A stretch of 34,287 nucleotides of DNA from a virus, in IMG/VR virus record IMGVR_UViG_3300046692_000196, positions 1 to 34,287 of that record. One strand, written 5' to 3'. Positions 1,519-32,857 of this stretch are shown piece after piece; positions within the stretch are counted from its first letter, which is position 1, and the number at the start of each line of letters is the position of its first letter. The notes beneath the pieces are model-generated. The model worked only from the letters and a program-made list of their open reading frames with translations, made no database searches and had not been told where the DNA came from. The translations under genes and the position numbers were made by a program.

Positions 1519-1803
1519 GGTGTTTCTCCAGTTTTAGAAATGAGTGGTTTTCCGAATGCCGCACGGGGTAGGCGCGGCATTTGTGAAACTCACTGCTCGC
1601 CTGAATCAGCAGGCGCTCCCAGCGACTCGCTACTGGCGCAGCGCTGGGGTGTCTCGGTATGTCAAAGAACTTGTTTCCAGTCGGTCCCTTCATGGGGCTG
1701 GGAGGTCACTGTCGCTGACCCCTGGCTATCTGGCGGCTTCACCAGTCGTGTTGAGGGCCGGTTGAGGCCCTGGCTGCGCGGTGTTCTGCGCTGCGATGGG
1801 TTA
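1519..1803 (-). other. non-coding leader of the leftward operon
   Basis: About 285 bases lie between the PL-like promoter and the first small gene. I see no well-supported gene. The only notable structure is a 6-bp stem (TGCCGC at 1557 with GCGGCA ending at 1579) with an 11-base loop. No lambda-type boxA or boxB is obvious, so an N-like antitermination site is not shown here. Confidence 0.4.
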
Positions 1804-1832
1804 ACATTACGCGCTGTAATAATCATCGTCAA
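1804..1832 (-). promoter_or_regulatory. PL-like leftward early promoter
   Basis: On the minus strand, TTGACG (1832-1827) and TAATGT (1809-1804) are separated by 17 bases. The -35 is one base from consensus. One candidate operator overlaps the -10 and spacer and a second overlaps the -35, so repressor binding would block RNA polymerase. It would drive the genes from 1518 to beyond the left edge. Confidence 0.6.
1806..1820. promoter_or_regulatory. candidate left operator 1
   Basis: A perfect palindrome, ATTAC-GCGCT-GTAAT, covering the spacer and part of the -10 of the leftward promoter. The same half-sites occur at 3028-3042 over the rightward promoter. This is what a shared CI/Cro operator looks like. 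Confidence 0.65.
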
Positions 1833-1845
1833 TACTCAAAGTAAT
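1831..1845. promoter_or_regulatory. candidate left operator 2
   Basis: AATAC-TCAAA-GTAAT has one mismatch to the ATTAC-N5-GTAAT pattern. Its centre lies 25 bases from operator 1 and it overlaps the -35 of the leftward promoter. Confidence 0.55.
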
Positions 1846-1851
1846 AAATAT

Positions 1852-1866
1852 TTTTGGCGGCGTAAT
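1852..1866. promoter_or_regulatory. candidate left operator 3 (degenerate)
   Basis: TTTTG-GCGGC-GTAAT keeps one perfect half-site and two matches in the other. Its centre is 21 bases from operator 2. It is weak alone but occurs at the spacing expected of a third site. Confidence 0.3.
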
Positions 1867-1906
1867 AAAATGTCGCCGCGTAGTTGGCTGGCCGAATCGC
1901 AGGCAT

Positions 1907-1930
1907 GAAAAAGCCCGCGCTGGGCGGGCT
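1907..1930 (-). terminator. terminator of the cI operon
   Basis: Read on the minus strand, a 7-bp stem (AGCCCGC with GCGGGCT, 5-base loop) is followed by a T-run. It lies 20 bases after the stop of the membrane gene at 1951 and before the left operators, so it would end lysogenic transcription before it reaches the leftward promoter. Confidence 0.8.
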
Positions 1931-1950: not shown

Positions 1951-2247
1951 TTACAGGACAGAGAATACGGCAGCGACTATCCCGGTCGCGACAATCATGC
2001 AGGCCGCGTACAGAGCCCATGAAAGGAACATATCCTTGCCGTCACGGGTCGCTATTGCCAGATCAGAGAATGACGACAGGCGACCTTCTGCGAAGCGCAT
2101 CGTGACCGCAAAGGCGATGAATACGCTGGCGAACAGGAGCGGGACCGACACCCACAAACCGTAAGGCCTCGGCATGACGCCTGCTGGAATCATCGCGACA
2201 TACCCCAGCACGACCAGCAGCACGATAAACGCGATGGCCGCCTTCAT
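1951..2247 (-). CDS. three-helix membrane protein co-transcribed with cI (rex position)
   Basis: A 98-residue hydrophobic protein with three predicted membrane helices: about residues 3-22, 30-50 and 75-97, with a charged loop (RDGKD) before the last. Its ATG shares one base with the stop of the repressor gene (TAATG), so translation is probably coupled to that of cI. A terminator follows it at 1907-1930, so the pair forms one lysogenic transcript lying between the left and right operator sets. In lambda the same place holds rexA and rexB, and RexB is a membrane protein. There is no sequence similarity to RexB that I can see. By position, I infer expression in the lysogen and a possible role in superinfection exclusion or envelope change. 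Confidence 0.75.
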   Translation of the reverse strand: MKAAIAFIVLLVVLGYVAMIPAGVMPRPYGLWVSVPLLFASVFIAFAVTMRFAEGRLSSFSDLAIATRDGKDMFLSWALYAACMIVATGIVAAVFSVL

Positions 2248-2960
2248 TATCTTCTTCTCGGCGAACGCCGGACGGTTGACCACCAGAAAACGCGGCCGAG
2301 CATCACCACCTGGTCCTGCCAATCCTCAGCCGTCATCAGTTCGTCGGGATAGTCGTCACTGTTCTCGCTGCGAATCCTGACGCCGCCGTTCGGCATCCGG
2401 TGCAGGTATTTGGTGCGCAGCAGCCCGCCGTGGTTGAACACATAGATCTCGCCATCGATGATCGACTTGTCGTCCATGTCGAACCCGATGGTGGCGCCGT
2501 CCAGTATCAGGCGCTCCATGCTCTTCCCCTTGATCCGGGCACAGGCTGCGCTCTTGCAGTCCACCCCAGCGGCTCGCAGGGTGGCATTACTGAAGCGCAG
2601 TTTCCTTTCCGCTACCTCTACTACTTCGGTCATTCCGTTTCCGCCAGCGAATTCAACCTCTACATAATAGGGCACTTCGCACTCGTCGTTATCGACTGGA
2701 TCACCGTCGTCCCATCCTGACAGCTCCCCGATCAGCTCCATGTTTGACTCGACGCGAACAGGTTCCGCGACGGAAACCGTCATTGGCGGGAGTCCGAGAT
2801 ATTTAAGGACTGCCGAAATCACCTCAAGTGAGGGCTCACGCCTGCCGCTCAACCAGTGCGCAACACCACCCTGGCTCACACCCATGTGTTCAGCCAGCGT
2901 CTCCTGAGTAATCCGGCGCTCTTTCATTCTGGCCTTTGCCAGTTCGTACCATGTCTTCAT
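2247..2960 (-). CDS. cI: CI-type prophage repressor (HTH plus S24 peptidase)
   Basis: A 237-residue LexA/CI-type repressor that would bind the operators flanking it and keep the lytic promoters off. Residues 10-45 form a helix-turn-helix (TQETLAEHMGVSQGGVAHWL). Residues 100-225 are a peptidase S24 domain with the expected dyad, Ser147 (GKSM) and Lys184 (RTKYLH). A likely RecA-stimulated self-cleavage site is Ala105-Gly106, about 40 residues before the serine as in lambda CI. The ATG at 2960 starts the HTH domain at the right place; a longer upstream frame runs through the operators and is unlikely. No ribosome site precedes this ATG, and a possible -10 (TAATGA) lies only 7 bases upstream, so the mRNA may be leaderless as for lambda cI. 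A membrane gene follows with a 1-base overlap. Confidence 0.93.
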   Translation of the reverse strand: MKTWYELAKARMKERRITQETLAEHMGVSQGGVAHWLSGRREPSLEVISAVLKYLGLPPMTVSVAEPVRVESNMELIGELSGWDDGDPVDNDECEVPYYVEVEFAGGNGMTEVVEVAERKLRFSNATLRAAGVDCKSAACARIKGKSMERLILDGATIGFDMDDKSIIDGEIYVFNHGGLLRTKYLHRMPNGGVRIRSENSDDYPDELMTAEDWQDQVVMLGRVFWWSTVRRSPRRR

Positions 2961-2969
2961 TCGCAAATC

Positions 2970-2984
2970 ATTACGTCCTGTAAG
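2970..2984. promoter_or_regulatory. candidate right operator 3 (next to cI)
   Basis: ATTAC-GTCCT-GTAAG has one mismatch to the palindrome. It lies 10 bases before the cI start codon and overlaps the presumed cI promoter -10, so occupancy would shut cI, as OR3 does in lambda. Confidence 0.6.
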
Positions 2985-2995
2985 GCTCCCCACCA

Positions 2996-3010
2996 GAGAC
3001 AGCCTGTAAT
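2996..3010. promoter_or_regulatory. candidate right operator 2 (degenerate)
   Basis: GAGAC-AGCCT-GTAAT has one perfect half-site and a degenerate partner. It lies 26 bases (centre to centre) from the cI-side site and 32 from the cro-side site, just upstream of the cro promoter -35. Confidence 0.4.
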
Positions 3011-3015
3011 GCTGC

Positions 3016-3044
3016 TTGCGACATTTCATTACCCAAAGTAATAT
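3016..3044 (+). promoter_or_regulatory. PR-like rightward early promoter
   Basis: TTGCGA (3016-3021) and TAATAT (3039-3044) are separated by 17 bases. The start point would fall near 3051, giving a short leader with a GGAG ribosome site before cro. The -10 overlaps a perfect operator palindrome. It would drive cro and the replication genes. Confidence 0.75.
3028..3042. promoter_or_regulatory. candidate right operator 1 (next to cro)
   Basis: A perfect palindrome, ATTAC-CCAAA-GTAAT, overlapping the -10 of the rightward promoter. It is identical in both half-sites to the left operator at 1806-1820. Confidence 0.7.
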
Positions 3045-3069
3045 CCGTGCAAGAGTACGGAGAAACCCT

Positions 3070-3294
3070 ATGTCCAACCTGAAAACGATCCGCGAAAAAG
3101 CCGGTGTAACCCAGGCCGTTCTGGCTCAGATCATCGGAATGACGCAGGGCGCAATCGCCCACTACGAGAGCGGCCGCCGCAAGCCGCCGCTTGATGAGTG
3201 CCGGCGGATCGTTGCTGCGCTCAACACCAATGGTGCTGACGTGACCCTGGACGACGTGTTTCCGCCAGCAGAAACCAATCAATCAGCAGCTTGA
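3070..3294 (+). CDS. cro: Cro-like HTH regulator
   Basis: A 74-residue protein made almost entirely of one XRE/Cro helix-turn-helix domain (TQAVLAQIIGMTQGAIAHYE, about residues 14-33). It is divergent from the repressor and is the first gene of the rightward operon. A CGGAG lies 8 bases before the ATG at 3070; an upstream in-frame ATG at 3016 lies within the promoter and is not used. By position and fold it should bind the same operators and prevent cI synthesis during lytic growth. Confidence 0.88.
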   Translation: MSNLKTIREKAGVTQAVLAQIIGMTQGAIAHYESGRRKPPLDECRRIVAALNTNGADVTLDDVFPPAETNQSAA

Positions 3295-3322
3295 ACCCTT
3301 TCCAATAACCGAGGAGATACCG

Positions 3323-9427: not shown

Positions 9428-9675
9428 GATTCCTTCTCCTGGTAGCGCTCTTGCTCGCTGGCTGTATGCCTCGAGAAGCCATCCAGCGAGACCGGCCCGT
9501 GCAACACACCACAGTCAACCGATACACCTCAGCCCCAAGCGAGTGCCCAAAGCCAGCTGCATCCAAGGATGCCGAACTGCGCCGCGTGACGGCCAGCCGT
9601 GACGACTGGAAACGCTACGCCGAAAGCCTCGAAAAACTTCTACCCTCGGACGCCGACCATGCGCCTCATCCCTGA
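9424..9675 (+). CDS. small lipoprotein in the lysis cassette (o-spanin-like?)
   Basis: An 83-residue protein with a clear type II signal: a hydrophobic start and lipobox LAGC with the acceptor at Cys14. The mature part is polar, with a short helical region (ELRRVTASRDDWKRYAESLE). It starts at a GTG overlapping the previous stop and overlaps the holin-like gene by 17 bases. It is less Pro-rich than classical Rz1, and a separate Rz/Rz1 pair lies downstream. It may form an extra spanin pair with the previous gene, or be a lipoprotein of other function. Confidence 0.7.
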   Translation: MRFLLLVALLLAGCMPREAIQRDRPVQHTTVNRYTSAPSECPKPAASKDAELRRVTASRDDWKRYAESLEKLLPSDADHAPHP

Positions 9676-9865
9676 ATGGCGAAAGGCGTGGCGGTTTTCG
9701 AGTGTGCAAGCGCTGTTCCTGCTCCAGTTTCTGCCCGACACCGTACAGCTGTTCATGCACTACGACCCAACCACCACTGACCTGATCATCTACCGCACTG
9801 CATTGGTGATCGCACTGGTTGCCCGCATGGTCTACCAGCCGAAAGCGAGAGACGCCGATGCCTAA
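9659..9865 (+). CDS. putative holin
   Basis: A 68-residue protein with two hydrophobic segments (about residues 15-32 and 42-58), a basic N-terminus (MRLIPEWRKAWRF) and a short charged tail. Size, topology and location directly before the endolysin fit a small holin, which would depolarise the membrane and let the SAR endolysin act. It overlaps the lipoprotein gene before it and the endolysin gene after it. Assignment is by context; the family is not one I can name with certainty. Confidence 0.65.
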   Translation: MRLIPEWRKAWRFSSVQALFLLQFLPDTVQLFMHYDPTTTDLIIYRTALVIALVARMVYQPKARDADA

Positions 9866-10334
9866 CCGCAATCAGAAGGTCGGTGGTGCGCTCGTTGGTG
9901 CTGCCTTGACCGCGTCCATTGCATTGGTAGCGCCGTGGGAAGGGAAGTCGAACAGGACATACCTCGACATCGTTGATATCCCAACCATCTGTTACGGCCA
10001 CACCGGGTCAGATGTGAGATTGGGCCAGACGCTGACCGATGAGCAGTGCAACAGACTGCTCGGCGCCGACCTGCAGGAAGCGAACAGTGCCGTTTCGCGA
10101 TGCATCAGGGTCCCGCTCAAGGATAACGAGCGCGCCGCCTTTGTCAGTTTCACCTACAACCTGGGCGCTGGAGCATTCTGCAACTCCACTTTGGCCGCCA
10201 AGGTGAACGCTGGCGACATCGCTGGCGGTTGCCGTGAGATGGACAAGTGGGTCAATGCGGGTGGTAAGCGTGTTCAAGGTCTGGTCAATCGCCGGGCTGC
10301 CGAGCGCAATGTCTGCCTCGGCGGGACGCAATGA
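9858..10334 (+). CDS. SAR endolysin (GH24 muramidase)
   Basis: A 158-residue lysozyme that cuts the glycan chains of peptidoglycan. The catalytic triad has the phage 21/P22 spacing: Glu28, Asp37 and Thr43. Residues 7-27 are a weakly hydrophobic Ala/Gly-rich segment (KVGGALVGAALTASIALVAP) without a cleavage site, a signal-anchor-release sequence, so the enzyme would be exported by Sec and held inactive until the membrane is depolarised. The FTYNLGAGAFCNSTLAAKVN segment and the C-terminal RRAAERNVCL are family features. The ATG at 9858 is preferred over an upstream frame within the holin-like gene. Confidence 0.93.
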   Translation: MPNRNQKVGGALVGAALTASIALVAPWEGKSNRTYLDIVDIPTICYGHTGSDVRLGQTLTDEQCNRLLGADLQEANSAVSRCIRVPLKDNERAAFVSFTYNLGAGAFCNSTLAAKVNAGDIAGGCREMDKWVNAGGKRVQGLVNRRAAERNVCLGGTQ

Positions 10335-10804
10335 ACTGGCTGATCGGTGTCGTCATTGCACTGGTCATCGCATGCGGGATGCAGACCTATCGCCTGCAGA
10401 CCATGAAGGCCGCTCACGCCGAATACGTGGCCGACATCGAAGGCCAGGCCAGAAAGGCCAGCGAGAAGGCACGCGAAGTCGAGCAGAAACGCCAACAGTC
10501 CATTGATCAGGTCCGCACCGATGCAGCCAATCAGAAAGCACAAGACGACGCTCACGCTGCTGAGCTTGCTGCTACTGGTGACAGCCTGCGCCAACAGACA
10601 GCCAAGCTGCTCGCCGACCGCGCCACCCTCAATTCCATCCTTGCCGCAAGAGGCAAGACAATCAACGACCTTACCGATCTGCTCGCCCAGTTGCGCACAG
10701 AAGCTGACAACCATGCGGGCGAACTGGCAACAGCGCTTGACGCAAGTCGTCGGGCCGGATTCGCCTGTGAGCGATCGTACGACGCACTGAGAGATTCGAA
10801 ATGA
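10331..10804 (+). CDS. Rz-type inner-membrane spanin
   Basis: A 157-residue protein with an N-terminal membrane anchor (about residues 2-18, type II topology) and a long periplasmic coiled coil rich in Ala, Lys, Glu and Gln. It belongs to the Rz/DUF2514-like group. It starts inside the endolysin stop (ATGA). The o-spanin gene Rz1 lies wholly inside it in another frame (10521-10790). Together they would join inner and outer membranes to complete lysis. Confidence 0.85.
   Translation: MNWLIGVVIALVIACGMQTYRLQTMKAAHAEYVADIEGQARKASEKAREVEQKRQQSIDQVRTDAANQKAQDDAHAAELAATGDSLRQQTAKLLADRATLNSILAARGKTINDLTDLLAQLRTEADNHAGELATALDASRRAGFACERSYDALRDSK
10521..10790 (+). CDS. Rz1-type lipoprotein nested in Rz
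   Basis: An 89-residue frame inside the Rz gene. It has a basic start, a hydrophobic core and a lipobox VTAC with the acceptor at Cys23, followed by a Pro/Ser-rich stretch (PTAPPSIPSLP) typical of Rz1 o-spanins. Nested Rz1 genes are the lambda arrangement. The ATG at 10521 is the likely start because it places the charged n-region correctly; an earlier in-frame start at 10503 is less likely. Confidence 0.82.
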   Translation: MQPIRKHKTTLTLLSLLLLVTACANRQPSCSPTAPPSIPSLPQEARQSTTLPICSPSCAQKLTTMRANWQQRLTQVVGPDSPVSDRTTH

Positions 10805-31207: not shown

Positions 31208-32389
31208 CTAAATGACGGCGGGAATCGGTGTTGCAGCGAGCTTCTTGTGCATGAACCGTTCTTCAATGAATTTGTAGCTGTAGCAGGAAATGGTCGTTGC
31301 CACGAGCATCATGGTGAAGCAAATCAGCAGCATCGACGTCCAGTTTTGTGTGTCATGGAAATAACGAGTGACGATCTGCATCGTGTAATAGTTTATTCCC
31401 AGATGCCACAAATAGAACGAGTAACTTACTTTCCCAACCATCTGCATCGGCGCCCAGGTCATGCGATCCGGAAAACCCTTCGACAATACAAAGTACATGA
31501 ACACCGGGAACATGCAGAACAGCATGTAAGGAACGCGAATGTTCTTTTGAACGATCTCCCCACGGAACAAGTACAGCAGTAGAAAAGCAATGCCGATGAG
31601 CAGCAGATAGTTACTTGCAGTTTTTGAATTTAGGAATTTGAAGATTCCGGTCTTCCGGTTTTCGATCTCTACAGACAAAGCGCCAAACCAGAACGCAAGG
31701 ATGAATACGATGTCTGTGGTTCCATTGAACAGATCCAGTGGATTGAAAAACGCCACGGAGACAAACAGGACAAAAGCGGTTGTCACCGAAAATCTATTGA
31801 AGGTCGCCAAGATCGGGATCACCAGGTAGAACAACCATTCCCAGCGCAGCGTCCAGATGCTATTGATCCTCAGGAACATGTCTTTTGAAAATACGTCATT
31901 CACGTTGCCTATGCTGTTCACCACGGTGCTGAAGCCAAACCCGTAGTTCCTGACCAAGGCTGTGAGCTGTGCCGAGCTAGGGATCTGGAAGCCAGAGGTC
32001 GCCCAGTCAAGGAGCATGAACGTAGAAATGACAACGAGGTAGGCAGGCACCAGTCGAAGAATTCTTTTCTTGTAGAAGGATTCAGCCCTATAACGATTGT
32101 TCCGGATTTGCGACCAGAACAAATGACCGGTCAGCATGAAGAACAGCAGCACCCCAACTTCACCCATAGTGGCTGCAAGAACCTGCTTAGGCGCAAGGCC
32201 AAAATACATGGATGAGTGAGCGCCAAATACCAGAAATGCAGCCATCCCGCGCAACACTTCAAGCGAGTTAGAAAACCCTTTTTCTGACTCTGTTTCGATT
32301 CCTATCTTCATGCCAATTCGTCTTGTTATAAGGCAAGAGAATAAATACATGACCATGGTTATGAGTGGGTACATGAACTCGTTAAACAT
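31208..32389 (-). CDS. O-antigen acyltransferase (OafA/Oac type)
   Basis: A 393-residue integral membrane protein of the acyltransferase-3 family, with about ten helices. The catalytic-type motif is EVLRGMAAFLVFGAHSS with Arg47 and His58; other family marks are GEVGVLLFFMLTGHLF, RRILRLVPAY-like KKRILRLVPAY, and SYSFYLWHLGINYY near the end. Members transfer acetyl groups to cell-surface sugars. In temperate phages such genes change the host O-antigen and block reinfection. It is markedly more AT-rich than the virion genes, faces the other way, and has its own terminator. An AGGAGAGG precedes the ATG at 32389; Met27 is an alternative start that would drop an extra N-terminal helix. Confidence 0.9.
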   Translation of the reverse strand: MFNEFMYPLITMVMYLFSCLITRRIGMKIGIETESEKGFSNSLEVLRGMAAFLVFGAHSSMYFGLAPKQVLAATMGEVGVLLFFMLTGHLFWSQIRNNRYRAESFYKKRILRLVPAYLVVISTFMLLDWATSGFQIPSSAQLTALVRNYGFGFSTVVNSIGNVNDVFSKDMFLRINSIWTLRWEWLFYLVIPILATFNRFSVTTAFVLFVSVAFFNPLDLFNGTTDIVFILAFWFGALSVEIENRKTGIFKFLNSKTASNYLLLIGIAFLLLYLFRGEIVQKNIRVPYMLFCMFPVFMYFVLSKGFPDRMTWAPMQMVGKVSYSFYLWHLGINYYTMQIVTRYFHDTQNWTSMLLICFTMMLVATTISCYSYKFIEERFMHKKLAATPIPAVI

Positions 32390-32406: not shown

Positions 32407-32592
32407 TTATGACTTGTCGTCGCCGTCTTTCTCTGAGACCTTTCTCTTTCTTATTTCGTATTCATGCCAAATCCAGACACCTATCGCCATCCAGTCGATG
32501 TATTCCCAGTCTTGAGCTCTGGAGTATCCGGTCAAAAGCAATATCAGCGAAATGACCCCGATGATCCTGATGAATATGTCTACAAATATCAT
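32407..32592 (-). CDS. small membrane protein upstream of the acyltransferase (61 aa)
   Basis: A 61-residue protein with an N-terminal membrane helix (about residues 2-20, IFVDIFIRIIGVISLILLL) and a second amphipathic or short membrane segment (EYIDWMAIGVWIW), then a charged tail. It lies 18 bases before the acyltransferase on the same strand, so the two are probably transcribed together. The ATG at 32592 is chosen because a GGA lies at a normal distance; a TTG at 32619 is further up. It may help the acyltransferase or act separately. Confidence 0.6.
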   Translation of the reverse strand: MIFVDIFIRIIGVISLILLLTGYSRAQDWEYIDWMAIGVWIWHEYEIRKRKVSEKDGDDKS

Positions 32593-32664
32593 GTGAGTTC
32601 CAGGACCTTGGCTGATCAATCGTAAATGTGGCGGTGACGACGCTCAGATCTGTGAGGACAGGCG

Positions 32665-32736
32665 GCGAGCTGTGCGATGGTTGACGGACCGGATGAAGGC
32701 ACCGGCACGCCACAAGGGCGTCCACCGCACAGTCGC
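32665..32736. repeat. 72-nt inverted repeat (11 bp with one bulge)
   Basis: GCGA-g-CTGTGCG (32665-32676) pairs with CGCACAGTCGC (32726-32736) with a single bulged G. The interior holds another perfect stem-loop, ACGCC-ACAAG-GGCGT. No T-run adjoins it, so it is not a terminator. Confidence 0.55.
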
Positions 32737-32750
32737 CATAACACAAGCAC

Positions 32751-32771
32751 AAAAAAAACCGCCTACGCGGT
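32751..32771 (-). terminator. terminator of the integrase transcript
   Basis: On the minus strand, ACCGC-GTAG-GCGGT is followed by eight T residues. It lies about 145 bases after the integrase stop and before the acyltransferase unit on the same strand. Confidence 0.75.
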
Positions 32772-32857
32772 CGGATGCGCCTTCAGATTTGGGCCGTCAA
32801 ACCCAGTCACCGATGTGCGGCGACCGGCGAACAGTAATGATTGCGTGGGCTAGCGTC

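Follow-up and report, generated by a model that had tools for sequence, protein, structure and literature searches.

The window, by which we mean the whole 34,287-nucleotide stretch of DNA that was analysed, is a Pseudomonas prophage, and the product of orf98, a small gene directly behind the cI repressor gene, is probably made in every lysogen and probably helps to keep rival phages out. Our main reading, to which we assign a probability of roughly 0.45, is that orf98 is an accessory lysogenic-conversion gene representing a small, new family of inner-membrane proteins expressed in lysogens, with single-component superinfection exclusion as the most likely function. Repressor-operon cargo made by lysogens is, as a kind, already known. 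As far as our searches show, no library searched has a name for this particular family, and its relationship to a membrane protein of the Pseudomonas chromosome (see below) is undescribed.

The layout of the cI locus is summarised in Table 1. Reading of the open reading frames on the minus strand gives orf98 as 98 codons followed by a TAA stop. Its ATG (2247–2245) shares a nucleotide with the TAA stop of cI (2249–2247), which creates a TAATG junction at 2249–2245 (minus strand). Between cI and the terminator there is no gene but orf98, and the overall order is cro / O_R / cI / orf98 / terminator / O_L. The start inside the cI stop codon, the terminator behind the gene and its location between the left and right operator sets had all been claimed in an earlier note on this DNA, and each of these points was confirmed. 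The repressor itself carries an A-G cleavage-type motif (RAAGVD) and has the conserved Ser and Lys residues.

Table 1. Features of the cI locus in the window (TM, transmembrane segment)
Feature	Position	Strand	Basis
orf98, gene for a predicted 98-aa three-TM inner-membrane protein	1951..2247	-	ORF, hydropathy, AF2
cI repressor, 237 aa	2247..2960	-	HTH_3 (Pfam E 3e-12) and Peptidase_S24 (E 3e-18)
Intrinsic terminator 3' of orf98, t_imm-like	1912..1930	-	AGCCCGC-CCAGC-GCGGGCT-TTTT
Left operator set O_L	1805..1877	.	palindromes ATTACGCGCTGTAAT (1806) and AATACTCAAAGTAAT (1831), third related repeat (1862)
Right operator set O_R	2969..3043	.	copies (2970, 3028) and related repeats (~3003-3032)
Probable leftward early promoter pL, inside O_L	1801..1837	-	TTGACG-17-TAATGT, read from the sequence
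cro-like HTH gene, divergent from cI	3070..3294	+	ORF; DNA similarity to the phiPSA1 cI-cro region

With no more than one mismatch allowed, the palindrome ATTACNNNNNGTAAT is confined to four places in the whole 34 kb, namely at 1806 and 1831 in O_L and at 2970 and 3028 in O_R. Two further matches have two mismatches each, and the resulting total of six at ≤2 mismatches is not unusual, as 19 of the shuffles reached it. The weight of the operator assignment therefore rests on the placement of the four best copies; O_L and O_R are also paired by additional repeats. The element read as pL was not reported by a consensus promoter scan, and its assignment as the leftward early promoter is given here as probable. 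The folding energy of the terminator is by itself unexceptional (z −1.1 for a 54-nt stretch). In relatives a GC hairpin with a T-run is found at the equivalent position, with a different stem sequence. The GC3 of orf98 (0.72) is close to that of cI (0.70), with comparable values for the structural genes. Because of this match, and because homologues exist, one of them at the equivalent place behind cI in another phage, orf98 is taken to be more than a chance ORF.

Another region of the window, beside the integrase, contains a C4 antisense RNA (RF01695) with an a1/b1 target (RF03163), located upstream of two ORFs, a 70-aa membrane ORF and an acyltransferase-like one (32658–32837, minus strand, with 32407–32619 and 31208–32389, minus strand). 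C4 RNA usually controls an antirepressor. The acyltransferase-like ORF is possibly involved in O-antigen acetylation.

Hydropathy divides the orf98 protein into hydrophobic segments at residues ~1–27, 28–55 and 73–98, with a charged loop at 51–73, in agreement with the three membrane helices proposed earlier. Following the positive-inside rule, the topology is probably N-in/C-out, which would leave this loop, with the conserved G55, in the cytoplasm. The AF2 model, calculated from the single sequence, consists of three long helices, with a further short helix over residues 60–69, at low confidence (pLDDT 68.5). A structure-based homology search, which the earlier note had suggested as a check, was run on this model and gave no match (best E 2.2 for viral structures and 4.5 for the PDB), as is expected at this pLDDT. 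A sequence search of the PDB gave no match, and no family was matched in Pfam, PHROG, NCBIfam or PADLOC. Near-matches to SUR7, CopD, phrog_9343 and CbiQ in the first three of these libraries all had E ≥ 0.05 and were rejected as hydrophobicity noise. Within the profile libraries searched, orf98 is unmatched to any known exclusion family, and the PF14373 (Imm_superinfect) profile is absent from its Pfam list at E ≤ 10.

A holin reading of orf98 was rejected. A holin expressed in the lysogen would be lethal, and a separate lysis cassette at ~9.6–10.8 kb makes such a role unnecessary. Delimited by eye at 9599–10804 of the window, this cassette comprises a holin-like ORF, an endolysin and Rz with an embedded Rz1 frame.

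Homologues of orf98 were found by whole-genome searching combined with inspection of cI neighbours. By tblastn no match was obtained in phages up to E 10 or in plasmids up to E 0.1, scanning of the genome and viral contigs for peptide patterns likewise gave none, and the family alignment contains no stretch conserved enough for a pattern search of viral contigs. The Pseudomonas phages vB_PaeP_FBPa19 and FBPa42 encode a 99-aa three-TM homologue 33 nt past cI, with a terminator next. This protein shares 31% identity with orf98, at a score 13 SD over hydrophobicity-preserving shuffles. The operators of FBPa19 are of the ATATCC type and differ from those of the window, so that members of the family occupy one and the same slot in phages of two different immunities.

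A second homologue, of ~101 aa, is present in 63 of 400 Pseudomonas genomes (best E 1e-7). Identity to orf98 is mostly 24–29% over residues 1–91, with a similar hydrophobic layout, and the membrane core aligns without gaps at 28% identity (z ~12 against shuffles). The neighbouring genes, among them an rmuC-like gene and a FadL-type porin gene (names assigned by eye), are common to all twelve genomes examined (L036–L047), and owing to this shared neighbourhood the gene is regarded as chromosomal rather than as part of a prophage. Outside Pseudomonas the family is nearly absent, with hits in 3 of 245 genomes of the order, one of them strong. Direct comparison of the FBPa19/FBPa42 protein with the chromosomal family gave no detectable similarity, and the two are linked only through orf98, whose full-length similarity goes beyond hydrophobicity towards each of them (z 12–13 against FBPa42 and the chromosomal family). 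We take orf98 and the FBPa19/FBPa42 gene to be a small family in Pseudomonas phages, with the chromosomal membrane protein of Pseudomonas as its relative.

The closest cI found is that of phiPSA1 (74% identical). The DNA match between phiPSA1 and the window covers positions 2246–3302, from cI to cro, and ends at the cI stop. Past this stop phiPSA1 has a terminator at once, followed by the TGCCTGCGATTCG stretch that the window also has and by an O_L closely resembling the window's, with no gene in between. The prophage locus L048 has the same empty site. On the basis of the sequences of loci L005 and L048 and of the survey of post-cI regions, orf98 is therefore either a ~300 bp insertion that separates the cI stop from the terminator or a gene that the others have lost, and in both cases accessory. 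As in accessory (moron-type) genes, its presence varies between close relatives and its placement allows expression in the lysogen. We considered, and gave up, the idea that orf98 is strictly tied to the podoviral type of virion. Flu_PA14_4 shares capsid genes with the window, and together with Tr60_Ab31, HB2107-3I, YA3 and MPK9 it belongs to a set of phages that share capsid or terminase genes and lack orf98.

The survey of the post-cI slot took in ten annotated phage records and 30 genome loci, a second, partly overlapping set of 30 genome loci, and 125 viral-contig loci. Removal of duplicates left 79 distinct downstream sequences in the viral-contig set, 33 of which have an empty slot, defined as a terminator within 60 nt. 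At the viral-contig locus L204 (2177–3431), a PF14373 protein with an alanine-proline repeat and a zinc-ribbon-like tail is found 29 nt past cI (E 4.6e-14), with a divergent HTH gene in front; "Superinfection immunity protein" is here the name of the family and not proof of activity. The similarity of orf98 to this protein is weak (4 SD) and not enough to count as a match to an exclusion family. Another candidate cargo, at the Pseudomonas genome locus L072, is an 80-aa three-TM ORF 6 nt past cI that is unrelated to orf98. Two-TM proteins adjoin cI in TC7 (L014, 3354–3977), with a sub-threshold SLATT_1 match (E 0.09), and in Shamal (L124, 14552–15175). Putative small lipoproteins, one weakly BamE-like, lie +20 to +26 nt past cI at L203, L206, L219, L244 and L245, and soluble ORFs fill the slot at other loci. 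The slot between cI and the terminator is thus a site of variable, optional cargo, and the occupied slots include proteins without an evident exclusion role. Both these proteins and the many empty slots count against the exclusion reading of orf98. The "rex position" assigned to orf98 in the earlier note is supported in this sense, and the lambda record shows the same gene order on the same strand.

In the mechanism we propose, orf98 would most likely share a maintenance-promoter transcript with cI and be translationally coupled to it, and its product would be made throughout lysogeny and switched off on induction. At the inner membrane the protein may interfere with, for example, the genome entry of rival phages beyond the reach of the cI repressor, a step that is drawn from slot-mates and precedents only. 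The earlier suggestion that orf98 may be a new exclusion protein expressed in lysogens is made plausible by guilt by association, considering these slot-mates and the RexAB system of P. putida prophage P1. A more far-reaching version, in which the new exclusion family is related to the conserved Pseudomonas inner-membrane protein, has been plugged into the cI-operon slot, and mimics or displaces a host protein used in DNA entry by incoming phages, is considered quite unlikely.

The kinship with the chromosomal protein can also be read differently. Sharing ancestry with the protein encoded beside the rmuC-like gene, orf98 might bind the partner of that protein and alter the envelope or physiology of the cell, with any exclusion being secondary. 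Such a role is favoured by the gap-free alignment of the membrane core at 28% identity, the near confinement of the chromosomal family to Pseudomonas and its strictly conserved neighbourhood; the 72% divergence of orf98 argues for a changed one, and on balance we regard this explanation as unlikely. Alternatively, the gene could be cargo without a role in phage defence, either neutral or of some other benefit to the lysogen. This would be in line with the very diverse slot contents, putative lipoproteins and soluble proteins included, but homologues occupy this slot in phages of two immunities, which suggests that position has been selected for, and the idea appears improbable.

The overlap of stop and start codons would tie the synthesis of orf98 to that of cI, and the coupling could accordingly be regulatory, with orf98 feeding back on repressor stability or induction. 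Still, phiPSA1 and L048 do without orf98 while having the same cI type and operators, and the family is also found under the immunity of FBPa19, which makes a tuning function very unlikely. A RexB-like effector, depolarising or permeabilising the cell on infection and thereby causing abortive growth arrest, would fit the operon position, which equals that of lambda rexB and of P. putida RexB, a membrane protein likewise encoded by a cI operon (PMC12894663). Conversely, orf98 as the sole gene between cI and the terminator has no RexA-like partner, three TM helices are predicted rather than four, and the alignment with lambda RexB is at shuffle level (z 1.3, with 11% of shuffles as good). We thus hold a RexB-like action to be rather improbable. 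Pfam gave no Rex family at E ≤ 10, in keeping with the lack of Rex similarity stated earlier, and judged by sequence orf98 is not a member of the RexB family.

With orf98 a family without a name is defined, and its position has predictive value, as repressor-coupled genes should be made in the lysogen. The empty site of phiPSA1 and the FBPa19/FBPa42 homologue under another immunity provide a clean test of the slot as an exclusion-cargo site in Pseudomonas phages. Moreover, the link to a conserved host protein could expose a host factor on which phages depend.

Among the systems available for comparison, the FBPa19/FBPa42 gene is like orf98 in size class, in its three TM segments and in occupying the slot before the terminator, but it is separated from cI by a gap where orf98 overlaps it. 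The chromosomal protein is homologous over residues 1–91 and belongs to a conserved chromosomal gene beside the rmuC-like gene. PF14373 proteins (T4 Imm type) are, like orf98, small membrane proteins, with the L204 member in the same slot, and differ in that orf98 has no match to the profile. HK97 gp15, a superinfection exclusion moron, is a single small membrane protein made by the prophage; unlike orf98 it has 62 aa and is located among the tail genes, and the two show no similarity (z −1.0). The lambda genes rexA and rexB share with orf98 the location between cI and the immunity terminator, on the cI strand and between O_L and O_R, as well as a membrane protein product, whereas lambda has two genes, with a RexB of 144 aa, and orf98 stands alone. 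In P. putida prophage P1, RexAB (PP_5643/PP_5644) are cI-operon genes that act in phage defence, with RexB as the membrane protein (PMC12894663). They resemble orf98 as Pseudomonas prophage cI-operon cargo with a membrane effector, and differ in being two-component, in having two further genes between the repressor and RexAB, and in their four-TM effector (PMC12894663). One-component entry blockers are represented by T4 Imm, HK97 gp15 and P22 SieA (see also PMC11436027). As a single small membrane protein without a RexA-like partner, orf98 resembles these one-component entry blockers more than the two-component RexAB.
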